A DNA stretch of 64,000 nt, from positions 1 through 64,000 of the forward strand of contig JAAVHZ010000068.1 in assembly GCA_014799465.1 (NCBI GenBank). Direction: 5' to 3'. The notes beneath the pieces are model-generated. The model ran no database searches, was not told the origin of the DNA, and saw nothing but the letters and a program-made list of their open reading frames with translations. Numbering within the stretch: position 1 is the stretch's first letter; every line of letters begins with the position of its first letter. A program made the translations under genes and the position numbers. The DNA comes from Lachnospiraceae bacterium (GTDB lineage Bacteria > Bacillota > Clostridia > Lachnospirales > Lachnospiraceae). This document shows, piece by piece, positions 44,493 through 54,606 of this stretch.

Positions 44493-46034
44493 TTGAAAAG
44501 GGAAATGATAATTGTTCTTGACTTTGGCGGTCAGTACAATCAATTAATTGCAAGACGCGTAAGAGAATGTAACGTATACTGCGAAGTTCACCCATATACT
44601 ATGAGCCTTGATAAGATTAGGGAAATGAATCCTAAAGGAATTATATTTACAGGTGGTCCCAACAGTGTGTATGGCGATGATGCACCAAGATGTTCGAAGG
44701 AAATATTTGATATGGGAATCCCTATTCTGGGAATATGCTATGGTTCACAGCTTATGGCATACCTGCTGGGAGGAAGCGTTACTTCCGCTCCTGTCAGCGA
44801 GTATGGTAAAACAGAGGTAAATGTGGAAAATTCATCAAAGTTGTTTACAAATGTGAGCGACACAACTATATGCTGGATGAGTCATACTGACTATATAGAG
44901 AAAGCACCTGAAGGCTTTACTATTACCGCCCACACTTCTGTTTGTCCTGTAGCGGGAATGGAGTGTGCCGAGAGAAACCTGTATGCAGTACAGTTCCATC
45001 CGGAGGTAATGCATACACCAGAGGGCATGAAAATGCTATCAGGATTCGTGTATGATGTTTGTAAATGCTCAGGAGATTGGAAAATGGATTCCTTTGTAGA
45101 TACAACCATTAATGAAATTCGTCACAAAGTCGGCAATGGCAAGGTTTTGTGTGCACTTTCAGGTGGTGTGGATTCATCGGTAGCAGCAGTACTTCTGGCA
45201 AGAGCAGTCGGAAAACAGCTTACATGTGTATTTGTAGACCATGGTCTTCTTCGTAAAAACGAAGGTGATGAGGTGGAGGCCGTATTTGGACCGGATGGTC
45301 ACTATGACCTTAATTTTATCCGTGTAAATGCACAGGAGAGGTTTTACAATAAATTAAAAGGTATAGAAGAACCTGAAGAGAAACGTAAAATTATTGGTGA
45401 GGAGTTCATTAGGGTATTTGAAGAGGAAGCCAAAAAGATAGGTGCCGTAGATTATCTCGTTCAAGGTACAATATATCCTGATGTAATAGAGAGTGGACTT
45501 GGCAAGTCAGACGTAATCAAGTCTCATCATAATGTAGGTGGTCTGCCTGAGTGTGTTGATTTTAAGGAAATTATAGAACCGTTAAGACTTCTGTTTAAAG
45601 ATGAGGTCCGCAAGGCAGGACTTGAGCTTGGTATCCCAGATTATCTTGTATTCCGTCAGCCTTTCCCAGGTCCGGGACTTGGCATAAGAATTATTGGGGA
45701 AGTAACTAAAGACAAGGTGCGTATTGTGCAGGATGCAGATGCCATCTACCGCGAAGAGATAGCAAAAGCCGGAGTTGATAAAGGTCTTGGACAGTATTTT
45801 GCTGCTCTTACTAATATGCGTTCAGTGGGTGTAATGGGTGATGAAAGAACTTATGATTATGCAATTGCATTGAGGGCAGTGTGTACAAGTGATTTTATGA
45901 CTGCGGAGGCAGCACAGATTCCGTGGGAAGTTCTGCAGGTGGTGATGAATAGGATAATTAATGAGGTTAAAGGGGTTAATCGGGTAATGTATGATTTGAC
46001 TAGTAAGCCGCCGGGGACGATTGAGTTCGAATAA
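44493..46034 (+). CDS. guaA: GMP synthase (glutamine-hydrolysing)
   Basis: GATase [31 protein letters not shown]-terminus [17 protein letters not shown]. Confidence 0.98.
46023..46033 (+). other. Putative att core copy 1 (guaA 3' end): GAGTTCGAATA
   Basis: Identical 11-mer recurs at 47228 and 54028. Confidence 0.75.
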
Positions 46035-46151
46035 TACAAGGGTGTATAGTTTATTATATATGGCAGGTGGTCTATATGAACGCCTACTGTATTTGATAAA
46101 TATTATATATACATTTTGAGATAAGTATTGTTGCCAAATAGGAGAGGTGTA

Positions 46152-47099
46152 ATGAGTAAAAGGTATAAGATTATTTTGGTTGGAATTATTGTTGTCTTTT
46201 TTGCTTGTTTGATATATAGTTTTATTGATAGAGATTTTGATTTTATTACATATATAGCTGGACTATCCAGTTTCTTTGTTGCATTACTTACAGTTGTATA
46301 TGTATACACGACTAATGAACAATTGAAAATGATGAATAAACAATTAAAACAAATGGAAAAGGAACAAAAGCAACAACGACAGCCATTTCCACATATGAAT
46401 AAGGTTGAGTTAGAAATCGAGAAACCTAGGTTTTTCTATACACCACCAACAGATGAGTATTCATGTCAATCAAGGTATCGCATAATAGCAAATATCGATA
46501 ACCTTACAAATGAGCCGGCAGTGTTATTAGATGTGGTTGCAACAATTAATATACCACAAGATAACAATATAATTGTGCTTGATACAACTACAGAACGAAT
46601 CAATGTATTGTCAAAAGAATATAATGATAAGATAGAAGTCAGTTTCCTTTTTTCAGGAGATGAAAAAGCAAAATTATTTGAGGCATTAAGAAACAAAAAG
46701 GCAAGTGAATTCCCAAGATTAAATATTTGCATTTATTATAGGAACCTTGTGGGAGGTTGTTTTAAACAAAAGAATTCATTTTATATTTTGCCAGAAGACC
46801 TAGATGTAATAAATAATTGGCATATAATAGTGAATTCGTTTGAGGTAGAATATTATGAAAAATTAAAAAAATTAAGAAACTTGGAAAAAGGTGATAAATT
46901 GCGAGAAATTCTTTTTGATGAAATTAAGCAAGATATTATAAAAAGATTAGAAGATGACTCAACAATTAAACTTGAAACTATGGCAATAAGTATAGCTTTT
47001 TCTATAGATTTTTTAGCAGAAAAAGAATATGTAAACGAAATTGACAAAATTAGTTATTATAGTCGATTTATTGGGGTTGAACCTGAATGCAAAGAGTAG
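46152..47099 (+). CDS. Hypothetical membrane protein, sole cargo of first att-bounded segment
   Basis: Two N-terminal TM helices, coiled coil (NEQLKMMNKQLKQMEKEQKQQ), then soluble domain. Confidence 0.75.
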   Translation: MSKRYKIILVGIIVVFFACLIYSFIDRDFDFITYIAGLSSFFVALLTVVYVYTTNEQLKMMNKQLKQMEKEQKQQRQPFPHMNKVELEIEKPRFFYTPPTDEYSCQSRYRIIANIDNLTNEPAVLLDVVATINIPQDNNIIVLDTTTERINVLSKEYNDKIEVSFLFSGDEKAKLFEALRNKKASEFPRLNICIYYRNLVGGCFKQKNSFYILPEDLDVINNWHIIVNSFEVEYYEKLKKLRNLEKGDKLREILFDEIKQDIIKRLEDDSTIKLETMAISIAFSIDFLAEKEYVNEIDKISYYSRFIGVEPECKE

Positions 47100-47110
47100 A
47101 ATTACATGGC

Positions 47111-47239
47111 AACATTTTGGCAACAGAAAATCAGTAAGCCAGAATAAATGATGTAATTGAAGTAAAAAGCAGTGTGTATTTGCATAAAACTTAAACAAAT
47201 ATAGTTAAGAGCAACAAAGGACACTTCGAGTTCGAATAG
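47111..47239 (+). repeat. Element right-end repeat copy 1, with att core copy 2 (47228..47238)
   Basis: Gapless alignment to 53911..54039, about 18 mismatches in 129 by hand count. Confidence 0.85.
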
Positions 47240-47246
47240 TAAACAG

Positions 47247-47290
47247 AGAGCCGGGAAGCCGCACATAAACAGCGGACTTTCCGGCTTTTA
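47247..47290. terminator. GC-rich hairpin terminator after att copy 2
   Basis: agccgggaagccgc-acataaaca-gcggactttccggctttt. Confidence 0.7.
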
Positions 47291-47335
47291 GCTTGTGGCG
47301 AGATACCTTTTTGATACCTATTTTTTCAAATAAAC

Positions 47336-47700
47336 TTATTTAGTATATTTCCTAAATAAAGTTGCAGTAAATAATGTCATGATTATAGAACCGCATAATA
47401 GTTCAACAGACATGGCTATTTGTGTAATGCCGGATGTGGGAGCAGTGCTGCCTTGTCCCACTGTTAATAAGTGTAATAAAGCTGTAATATAGACTTTGGA
47501 GCCAATCAAATATTGTCTGACGATTAATAGCAAAAGTACAATTTTTAAAATAGTTGATTGAACAAGTAGAGGAATTAGGAGTAAATCCAGTAAACATATA
47601 AATAAAGCTGAATAGTAGTATTAAGAAGATTATACTTATAAACGCTTTGAAAGGTTTTTCTCCATATCCTATTATTGCTTCTAATAAATAATAAGGTAAA
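47336..47700 (-). pseudogene. Frameshifted two-TM potassium-channel-like gene
   Basis: Minus-strand frames read IGYGEKPFKAFISIIF...LQSLYYSFITL then, shifted, TVGQGSTAPTSGITQIAMSVELLCGSIIMTLFTATLFRK (selectivity-filter-like); 5' limit uncertain. Confidence 0.5.
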
Positions 47701-48052
47701 GCAGATATGACTTTTTTGCTTCTAGTTTCTGCTTTCTTGCGTTGATAATAAAAATTAGCTATATGATTATCATCTTCTCGTATATGATTGGAGATTGATA
47801 GGATATGACGGATATGGAAAAGAAAGTCATGGTGCGGCTGTGTGCAAAGATTCTGACAAAAACAGAATTGTATGATGCAGATATGGAAGTACTGAACTTG
47901 ATTGACTGGATATGTGTGTAGGAGCAGATTAAGACAAACAACAATGCAATTCGCAATCTGACTGGAGAATATAAGAAGATAGAGCCAGATTGCCGGGAGG
48001 GAGTGAGGCGCAGTTGGAGCGGATGAAAGAACTCTGTAAAGAGCGGAATAAT

Positions 48053-48190
48053 CTGTATGAGAAACGGAATAACTTGAAAGGGCAGAAACAAAAGATTGAG
48101 AAGTCGTTGGTGCGATAAAAAATGTAGAGTGTGGGTGATATGCCCTATATTTTTGTGGTAAATGTAAAGAGAAAGTAGTATAATAAAATC
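48053..48190 (+). repeat. Diverged repeat copy A upstream of acetyltransferase
   Basis: ctgtatgagaa...aagattgagaagtcgtt...tatatttttgtggtaaatg; matches 53513..53645. Confidence 0.75.
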
Positions 48191-48285
48191 TGAAAATTAT
48201 GGTTGATGGAGGTAAAAAGTGAAACGCTGCATTGTAGTAACCGATATAGTCGCATAATAACTATCAGAACATGTAGGATTTTAAA

Positions 48286-48915
48286 ATGACTATATCGGAG
48301 AACAAAATTTATCCCCGGACAGGTGATACCCAAACAGTTTATTTAAAAAATGTGATTACCAATGACAGAATTAAAATTGGTGATTATACAATTTACAACG
48401 ATTTTGTACATGATCCACGAAAATTTGAAAAGAATAATGTATTGTATCATTACCCAGTTAATGGAGATCAGTTACAAATCGGTAAGTTCTGTTCTATTGC
48501 TTGTGGAGCAAGGTTTCTGTTTACCAGTGCAAATCATGCAATGTCTTCACTTTCAACATATCCATTTCCAATATTTTTTGAGGAATGGGAATTGGACGTA
48601 AAAGAGATTACAAGCGCATGGGACAACAAAGGCGATATTGTAATTGGTAATGATGTTTGGATTGGCTTTGAAGCGGTTATTTTATCTGGTGTAACGATTG
48701 GCGATGGAGCGGTTATTGGTACACGAGCAGTTGTTACAAAAGATGTACCGCCTTATACGATCGTTGGAGGTGTTCCTGCAAAACCGATACGAAAACGGTT
48801 TTCGGACGATGTGATTTCTGAATTATTGAAACTTCAATGGTGGAACTGGTCTGAAAACAGGATTAAGAAAAACATTGTGGCGATTCAATCAGGTCGAATT
48901 GAGAATTTGGAATAA
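48286..48915 (+). CDS. CatB/Vat-type xenobiotic O-acetyltransferase (left-handed beta helix)
   Basis: [31 protein letters not shown]...[57 protein letters not shown]. Confidence 0.88.
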
Positions 48916-49048
48916 TTGGTAACAGTTGTGTGGAAATACAGTTTTCTTCAACTTCTTGTCTGTAAGAAAGACGGAATAATTTTCCTTAGTAATGATTTGA
49001 ACACGGTGCTAGCACCATGTAAGTTAATACAGATAAGGGAAAGGTAGT

Positions 49049-49090
49049 AATGTGGCAGTTCGCAGTATCAAGCGGATTGCCACATTTTTA
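49049..49090 (+). terminator. Hairpin terminator
   Basis: aatgtggcagttcgc...gcggattgccacattttt. Confidence 0.75.
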
Positions 49091-49123
49091 TGGAAAAATA
49101 GGCGGTTATGTGGTAATATATAG

Positions 49124-49235
49124 GAACAAAGATAAAAACACAACTCAAGGCAATCTTGCAGAACTGGTAGGTAGTCCAGTCGCACCATTTTGGTGTAAGT
49201 AACCCTCCCTCCTTAGGGTCGTCTGTTCTTTGTTC
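49124..49235 (+). ncRNA. yjdF-motif (azaaromatic) riboswitch
   Basis: aaacacaactcaaggcaa...ctggtaggtagtccagtcgcaccattttggtgtaagtaaccctccctcc core; 9-bp closing stem GAACAAAGA/TCTTTGTTC; directly upstream of YjdF ORF. Confidence 0.85.
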
Positions 49236-49263
49236 ATTACAATTATTTTAAGGAGGAATTGTC

Positions 49264-49680
49264 ATGGACAAAGTTTCGGGAAAGCTGACAGTATTTTTTG
49301 AAGAGTCCTTTTGGGTGGGAGTGTTTGAACGTATATCGGATGGAAAGTTATCTGTGTGTAAGGTTACGTTTGGCGCAGAACCAAAAGACTATGAGGTTTA
49401 TGATTTTGTTCTGAAAAATTATTATCGGTTACTATTTTGTCCAGCTGTGGCATCTGATGTAAAAGAAACTGGTCGCAATCCTAAACGGGTACAGCGCGAA
49501 GTGCGGAAACAAGTACAGAGTACAGGGATAGGTACAAAATCGCAACAGGCTTTGAAATTATAGCAGGAGCAGTTGAAAACTGAACGCAGGATTGTGAGCC
49601 GGGAACAGCGGGAAACGGAGAAACAGCGGCAGTTTGAACTGAAACAGCAGAAAAAGAAGGAGAAGCATAGGGGCAGGTAA
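49264..49680 (+). pseudogene. yjdF: YjdF family protein interrupted by in-frame TAG near the C-terminus
   Basis: MDKVSGKLTVFFEESFWVGVFERISDGKLSVCKVTFGAEPKDYEVYDFVLKNYYRLLF...; TAG at 49561..49563, same frame continues QEQLKTERRIVSREQRETEKQRQFELKQQKKKEKHRGR*. Confidence 0.8.
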
Positions 49681-49730
49681 TATTGCCCCAATTGCACTGA
49701 ATTTGTAATTGGAAAGTGAGGAAAGTGGAA

Positions 49731-49940
49731 ATGCCATATATTATGGTCGAAAGTGGAGCATTATCAGACGAGTAAAAAGAGCTGCTAATTAAGCGATTAA
49801 AAGAAGTGTCTTTTGAGATTATGAAAGTACCACAGGAGTTTTTTGTTACCACAATTAAAGAGGTATCTGATAAAAATTTTGGTATTGGTGGCAAAACGAT
49901 TGATAAGGTTAAAGAAGAATATATAAAGAATCATCAATAG
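49731..49940 (+). pseudogene. 4-oxalocrotonate tautomerase-like gene with in-frame TAA
   Basis: MPYIMVESGALSDE*KELLIKRLKEVSFEIMKVPQEFFVTTIKEVSDKNFGIGGKTIDKVKEEYIKNHQ; stop at 49773..49775. Confidence 0.75.
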
Positions 49941-50059
49941 TTTTTCGCAAATATGTGAATAAAAGTTTAGGGTAGTGGATAATTCTTTCCGTGGTTATGT
50001 TGTATAGGCTATAATAAAAAGATAAAAAGAAGTTTTGTTATTGGAGGAGGAATATAATA

Positions 50060-50857
50060 TTGGATAATCTAAAAAAATTGGAATTAGAATATGAAGGAAT
50101 AAGGAAAACTATTTTAGATTATACTTCGGAGGGTAATATAGTTAATTTTTTAGATGGACTAAAAAAACAAATTGACAAAAAAAACATAGAAGCAATAGAC
50201 TATTATATTAATGAAATATGTGTTTGGTATGAGAAGAATATAAATCAAATATATGAGAATGAGTTTGTTGTGGATCTGTCAGCACATGATAGAAATAAAA
50301 AGATATTAGAAGAAATTCAAACCGGATTTCAAGCGAAGAGAGGAATAGGAAAAGAGGAAAAGAAAATGTATTCAAAAATTTTTTTGAGTCATAATTCATA
50401 TGATAAAAAATACGGTGATGCTATAAGAAATCTTTTAATGAGTTTAGGGTTAAGAAAAGAACAATTGATATATACTTCACATCCTTTACATAAGATTCCG
50501 ACAGGTAATAACATCTTTGAGTATTTAAAACAAAATATACAAAAAGATATTTATGTTATATTTCTTTGGTCGAATGCGTACTTAAAAAGTGCAGCATGCT
50601 TAAATGAAATGGGAGCAGCATGGATAATAGAAAGTGATTATATAAATATGTATACTCCAGATTTTGATTTTAATAACCCACAATATCATAATTGTGCGGT
50701 CGATATAAGGAAAATGGGTGTAGTGTTAAAGAATGATGAACATTGTAAAATGGGAATGGTGGAATTGAAACAGAAACTTATACAAAATTTGGGATTAGCA
50801 ATAGATGAGCAGGAATGGATATATAGCTTAGATGAATTTATGAAAAACATTGTATAG
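50060..50857 (+). CDS. TIR-domain protein with N-terminal helical domain
   Basis: SKIFLSHNSYDKKYGDAIRNLL...IPTGNNIFEYLKQNIQKDIYVIFLWSNAYLKSAACLNEMGAAWI; conserved E in LNEMGAAW; TTG start after ggaggagg. Confidence 0.85.
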   Translation: MDNLKKLELEYEGIRKTILDYTSEGNIVNFLDGLKKQIDKKNIEAIDYYINEICVWYEKNINQIYENEFVVDLSAHDRNKKILEEIQTGFQAKRGIGKEEKKMYSKIFLSHNSYDKKYGDAIRNLLMSLGLRKEQLIYTSHPLHKIPTGNNIFEYLKQNIQKDIYVIFLWSNAYLKSAACLNEMGAAWIIESDYINMYTPDFDFNNPQYHNCAVDIRKMGVVLKNDEHCKMGMVELKQKLIQNLGLAIDEQEWIYSLDEFMKNIV

Positions 50858-50870
50858 AGGGAGAACAGTT

Positions 50871-51353
50871 ATGGAACAGAGAGAAATTCAAGCATTAGAG
50901 GAGTTGGCAAAGAACTTATCTTTATTATCTACAAAAGGAACGGTTACGGCTACTGAAGCCAAAATAAAAGCTATTCAGGTAGAAAAGGACATTGAAAAAA
51001 TTAAAAATCAGTATGATGAGATTGTTAACGTATTAATAGCAGAACGTGCAGAGGCGATTCGTATTGCGCAGGTTTATAAAAACGAAATGGAACGTTATGT
51101 AATTAGTGATAGCGATATTGAACATTTACATAATACTGTAGAATTAGTATTAGATATTATTAAAGAGATGAGCCCAAATATAGATGTAGCAATGTATCAG
51201 AAATTAAAAGAGCTGATTTGTGTTGATGTTTTAAAAGCAATTCAACTTTTAGGATTTAATTATAAGGAGGCTATTGGTGAACCATTAACACAATTATGTG
51301 CAAATGCTATATTAAATAAAACTCAAAAGGTTAGTCAAAATAGAAAGAGATAA
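50871..51353 (+). CDS. Small helical partner protein of the TIR gene
   Basis: Starts 13 bp after TIR stop (MEQREIQALEELAKNLSLLSTKGTVTATEAKI...); no family recognised. Confidence 0.7.
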   Translation: MEQREIQALEELAKNLSLLSTKGTVTATEAKIKAIQVEKDIEKIKNQYDEIVNVLIAERAEAIRIAQVYKNEMERYVISDSDIEHLHNTVELVLDIIKEMSPNIDVAMYQKLKELICVDVLKAIQLLGFNYKEAIGEPLTQLCANAILNKTQKVSQNRKR

Positions 51354-51404
51354 AGAGACTTTGTGATACCTGTTTGCTCTGAAGCTGCAAATAAGGCGTA
51401 AAAT

Positions 51405-51995
51405 ATGGATATTATTGCTAAGAAAAGCCTTAAAGGACAATCAAATGTTTATGCAATTCCATCTGACAAATTGATGGAGGTATTGGAAGAAAATACGGAT
51501 GCACTGTATATGTATCTCAATTGTCTGCCGGGTAGTATTTTTGAATACAAAAAAGCAACTGTAGAAGATATAGAAGAACTGGTAAGAACAAGGATTATTG
51601 TTCTTCGTGCCGCTAATAAATTGTCTGATGATGTAGATATGTATGTGCTGGAACAGGAATCTTTCGCATATTATAAGCGGGCATTGGAATCTGATGAACA
51701 TATCGCATACCTGGTGTACGATAATGATAAGTTTATCGGTTCAGGTGGAGTTAGTTTTTATCAGGTTATGCCAACTTATCACAATCCTACAGGTGAAAAA
51801 GCGTATATTATGAATATGTATACTGCACCGGAATATAGAAGACGGGAAACCACATTACATACATTGGATTTACTGGTAAAGGATGCGTTGGAACGGGGCG
51901 TGTCACAGATTGCGTTAGAGACAACGGATATGGGACGATCATTGTATGAGAAATATGGATTTGTAAAAATGGAAGATGAAATGGAGCTGATATAG
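51405..51995 (+). CDS. GNAT acetyltransferase
   Basis: IYKKATVEDIEELVRTR-type start; GSGGVSFYQVMP...AYIMNMYTAPEYRRRETTLHTLDLLVKDALERG...SLYEKYGFVK. Confidence 0.85.
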   Translation: MDIIAKKSLKGQSNVYAIPSDKLMEVLEENTDALYMYLNCLPGSIFEYKKATVEDIEELVRTRIIVLRAANKLSDDVDMYVLEQESFAYYKRALESDEHIAYLVYDNDKFIGSGGVSFYQVMPTYHNPTGEKAYIMNMYTAPEYRRRETTLHTLDLLVKDALERGVSQIALETTDMGRSLYEKYGFVKMEDEMELI

Positions 51996-52550
51996 TGAGT
52001 AGAAAACTGACCGATTTACAACCATGGGAATGCTTGATGAAGCGAATTGTATGGAAACAATTAGGAGACATTCGGGATAAGAAGATACTTGATTTTGGCA
52101 GTGGTATTGGGGTAACAGCAAATTATCTGGCAGAGCATAACCATGTAGTAGCCATTGAACCAGATGAAGATAGTGTTAAGAAAAGATGGGCAGACAATCA
52201 ATATACGCAAATTGTCGGAAGTACTGAAGAATTGCGTAAATTTGCAGATGGTTGTACTTTTAAATGATTTTGGGCATGCCAATAGTTTGCTTGATGGTAA
52301 TGACGGAATGGCTTCCAAGTATGGAGCGATTCGTTACTATGAGGATGTTGATATTGAAAAATGGTGTCCTGAACTTTCAATTAGGAAGGAACTTGGCATG
52401 AGAACTTTCTGGGATATGCAACAGAATCAGGATATTCATAAGGACACCGATTGGCAGGATAACATGGTGGAAATAGAAAGGCGGGTGTCTGACATAGATG
52501 TATATAAGGATATTGCGTTTTTTAATCATTTGATACTTGGGAAGAGATAG
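51995..52550 (+). pseudogene. SAM-dependent methyltransferase with internal deletion/frameshift
   Basis: ILDFGSGIGVTANYLAEHNHVVAIEPDEDSV in frame 1; VVLLNDFGHANSLLDGNDGMASKYGAIRYYEDVDIEKWCPEL in another frame; central part missing. Confidence 0.8.
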
Positions 52551-52560
52551 GAGACCTATT

Positions 52561-52617
52561 ATGACAAGAGTATATTTTGTGCGTCATGCACAATCGATGC
52601 ATAATTGGAAAGAGTAG
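52561..52617 (+). pseudogene. N-terminal fragment of histidine phosphatase family gene
   Basis: MTRVYFVRHAQSMHNWKE* (RHG-type active site) then stop. Confidence 0.7.
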
Positions 52618-52669
52618 AGTAATCCATGTAAGCAAATAATACGCTCTATCATACGCATTGCCCCTCGTT

Positions 52670-53105
52670 TGTACCGCCTCTTACGTTATTGGGGCGGAAA
52701 TAAAGCGTTTAGTTCCTGTCTTTATCACAAAATCAAAAAGAGGGTGTTTTGTATACACAAAGAACGTCCTCGCTGACAAGATAATATGCACATATGTCAA
52801 TATGCATTCCCGGTCATCAGGAAAAACAGTTTTCAGCGGAGCGGTCAGTTTCAAATCTGCAACCGCCTTATCAAGAAACTGTTCAATACCGGTTTCTGCA
52901 ACCGTACAGTTCTCCTGTGGATTTGAAATCTGTTCTTTATTTTTTGCGTCATCGTCCTTTTTTCGATTCAGGGCAATTTCACCAATAACAGAATCAAGAT
53001 GCCCGACACTTCTGCGATGGTCTTTATATGTTTTAGAATCCTTGTCCCAATATATAGTATTTTCATAAACATAAGTTTTTCCGTTTGGATTTTTGACACA
53101 AACAA
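52670..53105 (-). pseudogene. Transposase N-terminal fragment (IS1634/IS4-like)
   Basis: Minus strand reads CVKNPNGKTYVYENTIYWDKDSKTYKDHRRSVGHLDSVIGEIALNRKK...; truncated. Confidence 0.6.
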
Positions 53106-53512
53106 TTTATGAGAAATTGTTGCAAATACAGGTTGGCTACGAAATTATGATAGCAGTAAGAGTAAATTTTGTATTAAGTGGGACACTGATAATAAAGGCA
53201 GAAAGGACTGATTTTATGGCTGCAGTATTGAAAAAAGATTACCAACTAGCTTTGGACAAACAGAAAAAAGAAGTTAGAGAGCTTGTAATGGCTGGACTGG
53301 AGCAGATAAAAGAGGGAAAGACAAAAGACTTTAATACTGTGTGTGACAGATTGGAGAAGAAATACAGAGATGAGGGAATATCAAATACAAGATTTTTAAA
53401 ATAATTATGGAAAATATGCGAAATAAATGGTATGAAATAGTAGAAAATACGCCTAAAATATTAACAAATAAGTTAATTATTAGGGAGTTCGAGTGATGAA
53501 ATAGGATTTGTT

Positions 53513-53645
53513 CTGTATGAGAAGCAGAGTGACTTGAAAGAGAAGATTGAGAAGTCGTTAAAACGATAAGAAATGTGGGGCATGGCGGTTGCTGTGCCTT
53601 ATATTTTTATGGTAAATGGATAATGAAAGAGGTATAATCAAGAAA
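53513..53645 (+). repeat. Diverged repeat copy B upstream of phosphatase fragment
   Basis: ctgtatgagaagcagagtgacttgaaagagaagattgagaagtcgtt...ttatatttttatggtaaatgg; matches 48053..48190. Confidence 0.75.
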
Positions 53646-53676
53646 GTAAATTTAGATTGAACAGAAAGAGGTATTT

Positions 53677-53898
53677 ATGAAATTATTTGTTGCTCGTCAT
53701 GGTCAAACAACTTGTAATGCTCAAAATAAAGTATGTGGTATTACTGATGTAGAATTAACAGAAAAAGGAATAGAACAAGCAAAGAAATTGGCTGATATAG
53801 TACAGAATTACAATATTGATATAGTTATATCTTCACTATTAAAAAGAGCCGCAGAAACAAGTCAAATTGAATTGCGAATTTGCAGGGATTTGTTATAA
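53677..53898 (+). pseudogene. Histidine phosphatase family, C-terminally truncated at element end
   Basis: MKLFVARHGQTTCNAQNKVCGITDVELTEKGIEQAKKLADIVQNYNIDIVISSLLKRAAET; sequence then becomes the right-end repeat. Confidence 0.75.
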
Positions 53899-53910
53899 TA
53901 AATGCGTGAC

Positions 53911-54039
53911 AACATTTTGGCAACAGAAAATCAGCAAGCCATAATAAATAATGTAATTTAAGCAAAAATGGGCGTGTATTTACACAGAATTTAAACTAAT
54001 ATAGTTAAGAACAACAAAGAACACGCCGAGTTCGAATAG
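53911..54039 (+). repeat. Element right-end repeat copy 2, with att core copy 3 (54028..54038)
   Basis: Gapless alignment to 47111..47239; GGCAACA repeats at the same offset from the core. Confidence 0.85.
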
Positions 54040-54041
54040 CA

Positions 54042-54606
54042 AAGAATAATGAAAAAATATCAATTGGTTGCAGTCAGTTGTTTGATTCAGAAGGAAATGG
54101 TATGGAATTGTACTTGCGTTCGTTAAAAGATCCACAGATTATACAGAAAAATCCGTATATGAGAAGTGGAGATGCCTGCCGCCTTATGAACAATTTGAAA
54201 AGAATTTATGATGAATCGGTTCCTTTGCATAAACTAAATCGAATTGTAATACATAAGACAACACATTTTACAAAGGAAGAAATGGAAGGAATAACAAAAG
54301 GGCTTGCAAGTGTGGATAATATTGAATTGCTGCAAATTTAAGAGTTTTCTGCATGGAGTGCTATAAGATTTCATAATGATACTGCAACAACATTTCCGAT
54401 TCAAAGAGGAACTGTTATTACGCTTGACAAAGATACATTTTTAATCTGGACACATGGAAGTGTTCAGTATAATGAATTGAAATAGTTGTGACGGATTATA
54501 CAAAATATGGCCTGTAACGCTGGATTTTGCTAAGGCATTATCCCGTGTTGCTAAGCAAGACTTAGTGGTCTGTGATAGACCGTATAATTTTATATATTTT
54601 ATGTAA
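54042..54606 (+). pseudogene. C-terminal PIWI-domain remnant of a prokaryotic Argonaute
   Basis: KISIGCSQLFDSEGNGMELYLRSL...LNRIVIHKTTHFTKEEMEGITKGLASVDNIELLQI*EFSAWSAIRF...FPIQRGTVITLDKDTFLIWTHGSVQ...YKIWPVTLDFAKALSRVAKQDLVVCDRPYNFIYFM*; in-frame TAA, internal deletion, frame change. Confidence 0.7.

Follow-up and report, generated by a model that had tools for sequence, protein, structure and literature searches.

Is the small helical protein encoded directly behind a TIR-domain gene the sensor or regulator of that TIR protein, or does it belong to something else? The question arises from a 64,000-nucleotide stretch of a Lachnospiraceae bacterium genome (contig JAAVHZ010000068.1; the whole stretch is called the window here). 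A preliminary description had read the two genes as a TIR module in which the second protein, which we call the partner, might be a new sensor or regulator. The open reading frames place the genes as it had described them, on the same strand with a gap of 13 bp from the TIR stop to the partner ATG (Table 1); an alternative partner start, TTG at 50850, would overlap the TIR gene's stop. Both genes are rich in A+T: the G+C content is 27% in the TIR gene and 30% in the partner gene, compared with 35% across the window and 42% for guaA.

Table 1. Features of the TIR-partner locus and of the islet that carries it (window coordinates).
Feature	Position	Strand	Remarks
spbK-family (TIR) gene	50060..50857	+	265 aa; TTG start 50060, stop 50857
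Parts of the spbK-family gene	N-terminal domain ~50060-50371; TIR ~50375-50854	+	
Catalytic Glu E183	50606-50608	+	aligned with SpbK 9phb
Partner gene (PAR)	50871..51353	+	160 aa; ATG start 50871, stop 51353; all-helical in low-confidence models
Conserved partner block Q125-T140 (QLLGFNYKEAIGEPLT)	51243..51290	+	from 20-sequence alignment
Left direct repeat, att-like	47107..47243	+	core GAGTTCGAATA 47228-47238
Right direct repeat, att-like	53907..54043	+	core GAGTTCGAATA 54028-54038
att core GAGTTCGAATA at guaA 3' end	46023..46033	+	presumed original integration site

Judged by its sequence, the TIR protein adds a member to the SpbK family and has an architecture that is already known. Both marks of membership are present: a full-length profile match that takes in the N-terminal portal-binding domain, and a TIR domain with its catalytic Glu. 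The PADLOC spbK profile (PDLC03825) covers residues 1-264 (E 2.5e-114), and solved SpbK (PDB 9phb), the only PDB sequence match, aligns by phmmer with residues 1-253 (2.8e-38). TIR_2 scores above the Pfam cut-off at residues 107-189 (3.7e-08), and E183 in CLNEMGAAW, earlier named as the candidate catalytic residue, aligns with the Glu of LNEMGA in solved SpbK. Because the PADLOC and 9phb matches run through the N-terminal part of the protein, the helical domain previously described as unrecognised can be assigned as the SpbK N-terminal domain.

SpbK of Bacillus subtilis ICEBs1 is a portal-activated NADase that is necessary and sufficient without a partner (PMC8880864, PMC11984713, PMC12847820). 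Its N-terminal 115 residues are enough for binding the SPbeta portal YonE (PMC11984713), and portal dodecamers are proposed to cluster its TIR domains, with consumption of NAD+ (PMC12847820). By analogy, the window protein would also be a portal-triggered NADase. It resembles ICEBs1 SpbK in its full-length match, domain order, length (265 vs 267 aa), conserved catalytic Glu and carriage on a mobile islet, but a second gene follows it, and its islet lies at guaA and contains no conjugation module that we recognised. The proposal of an abortive-infection TIR NADase is thus upheld by homology, while that of a dedicated two-gene TIR module is not. A scan of viral contigs with the TIR protein gave no match.

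The pair lies, as had been proposed, in an att-bounded element. The flanking direct repeats are 137 bp each and 85% identical, and GAGTTCGAATA occurs in both and again at the 3' end of guaA. In the genome, a 26-base segment of the repeat that includes the core has exactly two copies, and a whole-genome search allowing up to three mismatches found no further site. The 3' ends of guaA are a known integration site for streptococcal ICEs (PMC4701971). With GAGTTCGAATA at 46023, 47228 and 54028, the region from 46023 to 54043 has a tandem att-like structure, which delimits islets of 1.2 kb and 6.8 kb. At 49264-49950 lie what appear to be broken remnants of two genes; these are intact in one relative (L003, 4405-5082), where we named them by eye as DUF2992-like and tautomerase-like.

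The partner represents a family that has not been described before and whose distribution is associated with defence. In agreement with the preliminary description, searches of Pfam, PADLOC, NCBIfam and PHROGs gave it no accepted match. The best sub-threshold scores were 0.046 (Imm51 and Spectrin_Anc-1), 0.021 (ZorB) and 0.00085 (phrog_26809), with none in NCBIfam, and the best PHROG score of phage-type members was 0.0049. We found no laboratory study of any member in the literature searched. Two AlphaFold2 models are consistent with the helical character noted earlier: both are all-helical at low confidence (pLDDT 67-68, pTM 0.36-0.37), with predicted helices at residues 3-37, 41-74, 80-100, 106-115, 118-126 and 131-159. 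Fold searches with these two low-confidence models returned nothing significant (best E 0.88 in PDB and 1.6 in BFVD). The recognition mark of the family is the conserved block QLLGFNYKEAIGEPLT, in which Q125, L126, G128, F129, N130, I135, G136, P138, L139 and T140 are invariant across a 20-sequence alignment. When the window is compared with two close relatives, whose partner copies are 94-96% identical, dN/dS is ~0.07 for the partner, below the 0.23-0.33 of SpbK; the partner is therefore a functional protein. Homologues occur in Bacillota, in Actinomycetota and in one MAG labelled Neisseriaceae, and a second subfamily of ~190-200 aa with a C-terminal extension is common in prophages.

Several candidate identities were rejected. 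A UBA/RuvA-like C-terminal domain at the LLGFNYKEAIG motif, an idea that arose from a weak match to a RuvA gene (L059), received an hhalign probability of 1% against 19 RuvA proteins. A match to IpaB in a PDB sequence search (4.8e-05) covered only a helical stretch and was judged to be coiled-coil similarity, and weak matches that would have indicated fusions to known domains (L026, L058, L059, L087) were judged to be chance. Nip, the phage inhibitor of SpbK, has a published SH3-like and HU-like architecture that does not fit the partner (PMC11984713).

The partner is not tied to TIR proteins. SpbK and the partner occur as a pair only in the window and in two near-identical cassettes (L002 and L003; partner 94-96% identical at the amino acid level). 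The att repeat of the window also lies 5' of the pair in L002, and GAGTTCGAATA follows the partner by ~135 bp in both L002 and L003, so that in this lineage the two genes may move together as a cassette. We ran the neighbourhood comparison that the preliminary description had proposed, and the partner is not conserved next to TIR homologues. It stands beside one of five full-length SpbK homologues in the sampled relatives, a limited sample in which the one is the window's own, and is absent beside the other four (L035, L036, L038 and L157, found among genomes sampled from the same class and family). These four have other surroundings: one neighbours a KAP NTPase (L065), one an nSTAND3/Mrr protein (L066), one lies in a DUF4391-Mod-Res operon (L168), and one is located within a BREX operon, in the pglZ-brxL interval (L067, G207:C18, 5672-15130).

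What, then, accompanies the partner? Grouped at 75% identity, its members form 34 clusters, and we took as neighbour the nearest same-strand gene within 300 bp. This neighbour is a defence gene in 9 of the 34 clusters (8 of 33 without the window), whereas none of the 33 random small genes that served as anchors in partner-bearing genomes had a comparable one (Fisher p 0.0012 with the window and 0.0024 without it). In this comparison the anchor set is small, part of the defence classification was manual, and genes carried as mobile-element cargo would make stricter controls than random small genes. Five strong PADLOC hits among the anchors (GlgB, BrxH, PsyrT, DpdF, mad2) were discounted as housekeeping-like by their names and single weak hits only, the genes themselves being unread. 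The enrichment may partly reflect life in mobile islands.

Besides SpbK in the window, the nine neighbours comprise type I HsdM (L027, L091), C5 MTases (L028, and L005, which also has a HaeIII-type endonuclease), the Mod (L019) and Res (L096) genes of type III systems, an Eco57I/IIG enzyme (L089, with an AbiGi gene on the opposite side) and a type ISP enzyme (L029, where four plasmid records form one cluster). Spacing to the defence gene is often operon-like, at 4, 6, 12, 13, 23 or 26 bp. The remaining 25 clusters lack a recognised defence gene as immediate same-strand neighbour, though several of them have one nearby; the more distant neighbours include AbiD (L094), GmrSD (L097) and a caspase/TIR/ThsB cluster (L064). 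In the last of these (G110:C10, 7969-11784), which is possibly a type IV Thoeris-like cluster, a partner-family gene precedes a 156-aa unrecognised gene, a caspase-like gene and two TIR genes, the second of ThsB type.

Other members stand alone (L060, L061 and a streptococcal cassette). In streptococci (L006-L014, L098) the partner gene and a Fic gene are divergent and form a ~1.5-kb block that occurs in several locations on the chromosome. One streptococcal copy beside guaA is split by ~1.9 kb of inserted DNA (L022, 3955-6342). LAB plasmids carry long versions of ~265-285 aa with an unrecognised C-terminal extension (L031, L033, L099), two of which (L031, L099) adjoin plasmid replication genes. 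In most of the viral contigs that we read, the partner lies upstream of HNH, terminase (TerS-TerL) and portal genes; we assigned these names by eye, apart from L072, in which Pfam confirmed a terminase. Profile scans of viral contigs with the family gave 5 and 13 loci in overlapping sets; a scan of viral contigs with a single partner sequence gave no match, nor did three family members against 50,697 deposited phage records.

These neighbours are exchanged. A tree of 34 partner members contains a well-supported clade of 14 in which SpbK, type II, type III, IIG, TIR/caspase, Fic and solitary contexts are mixed, and the partner's neighbours therefore change over time. Our main argument comes from an operon of the form helicase-DUF4391-X-Mod-Res, in which X is the partner in L019 (1432-11414) and SpbK in L168 (3858-13504); the two operons are homologous, with identities of 43% for the helicase, 36% for Mod and 34% for Res. 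Because SpbK is an autonomous effector, slot X seems to hold autonomous cargo, and the swap argues for independent action of the partner as well. We propose, with moderate confidence, that the partner is a modular add-on to defence, separate from the TIR protein and working independently rather than as its sensor.

We favour an autonomous add-on over a general regulator or guard, which would bind each co-encoded defence enzyme, whether SpbK or a restriction-modification enzyme, and tune it or shield it from phage inhibitors. The tight operon spacing beside unrelated enzymes, which could instead mean that the partner is linked to each enzyme physically or through regulation, and the location of the partner within the DUF4391-Mod operon are compatible with such a guard, and BrxR regulators provide a precedent of one family serving many defence systems (PMC9122601). 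Nevertheless, we find this reading rather doubtful: the enzymes have no common domain that a 160-aa protein would obviously bind, some partner copies are solitary, and an autonomous effector, SpbK, can fill the same slot. Tentatively, the family might be seen as plug-in add-ons that serve the majority of bacterial defence classes (type I, II, IIG, ISP and III restriction, TIR NADases and Abi genes), that prophages and plasmids carry as well, and that share one mechanism, such as protection of the co-encoded system or detection of an infection event common to them.

A dedicated sensor or regulator of the window's TIR protein, as first suggested, is unlikely. The 13-bp spacing and the retention of a near-identical pair in three genomes, in a cassette-like arrangement, are what such a role would predict, but the partner is missing beside the four other full-length SpbK homologues and its family mostly accompanies non-TIR genes; moreover, the SpbK N-terminal domain is already a portal sensor, and B. 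subtilis SpbK senses portals unaided. Somewhat less likely still is that the partner is mobile-element cargo, such as a gene for maintenance or phage assembly, hitchhiking alongside defence genes and having no role in defence. Prophage copies just upstream of HNH-TerS-TerL-portal genes and long versions beside plasmid replication genes would fit cargo of this kind, whereas distances of 4-26 bp to defence genes in several unrelated systems, the position within a restriction operon and strong purifying selection do not. It would also be very surprising if the partner were the receptor for N1-cADPR made by SpbK, a receptor that has been discussed as unidentified (PMC12847820). The partner is co-encoded with a TIR NADase here and lies near the TIR/caspase cluster of L064, but most of its defence-adjacent copies adjoin restriction genes, which make no nucleotide signal, and it lacks a recognisable nucleotide-binding domain.

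The locus has partial parallels among known systems. With Thoeris ThsB it shares a TIR domain and a two-gene neighbourhood, but the ThsB match is weak (PADLOC 9e-05) and no recognised nucleotide-sensing effector is adjacent; assignment to Thoeris (a ThsB TIR protein plus a ThsA-type effector) was rejected on that weak match and on a partner without an effector or nucleotide-binding domain. PrrC-type suicide 'guard' genes, like the partner, are extra genes nested in restriction operons. Unlike PrrC, a tRNA nuclease that carries an ATPase domain, the partner has no recognised catalytic domain. Like BrxR/CapW-type WYL regulators, the partner is one small family that co-localises with many defence systems; BrxR, however, is a WYL-domain DNA-binding repressor, and the partner shows neither a DNA-binding nor a WYL domain (PMC9122601).

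Beyond the observed family identities, gene order, purifying selection and partner exchange, we infer the activities of the autonomous add-on and its neighbour as follows. One small islet at guaA would pack two separate anti-phage cargo genes, which are probably co-transcribed in this lineage and possibly translationally coupled. By homology, the N-terminal domain of SpbK would bind the assembled phage portal, its TIR domains would cluster there, and the clustered protein would destroy NAD+, such that the infected cell dies or arrests. The partner belongs to a widespread family of small helical proteins repeatedly inserted into very different defence operons, mobile islets and prophages, and would supply an additional defence or defence-protecting factor, most likely an independent one.

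Of the two genes, the TIR gene extends a known defence gene, and the partner matters more. Its family is missing from the defence and domain libraries that we searched, yet it recurs beside mechanistically unrelated anti-phage systems. If the partner guards or boosts many of these systems, it would represent a shared layer of immunity that has been missed by searches keyed on large enzymes.
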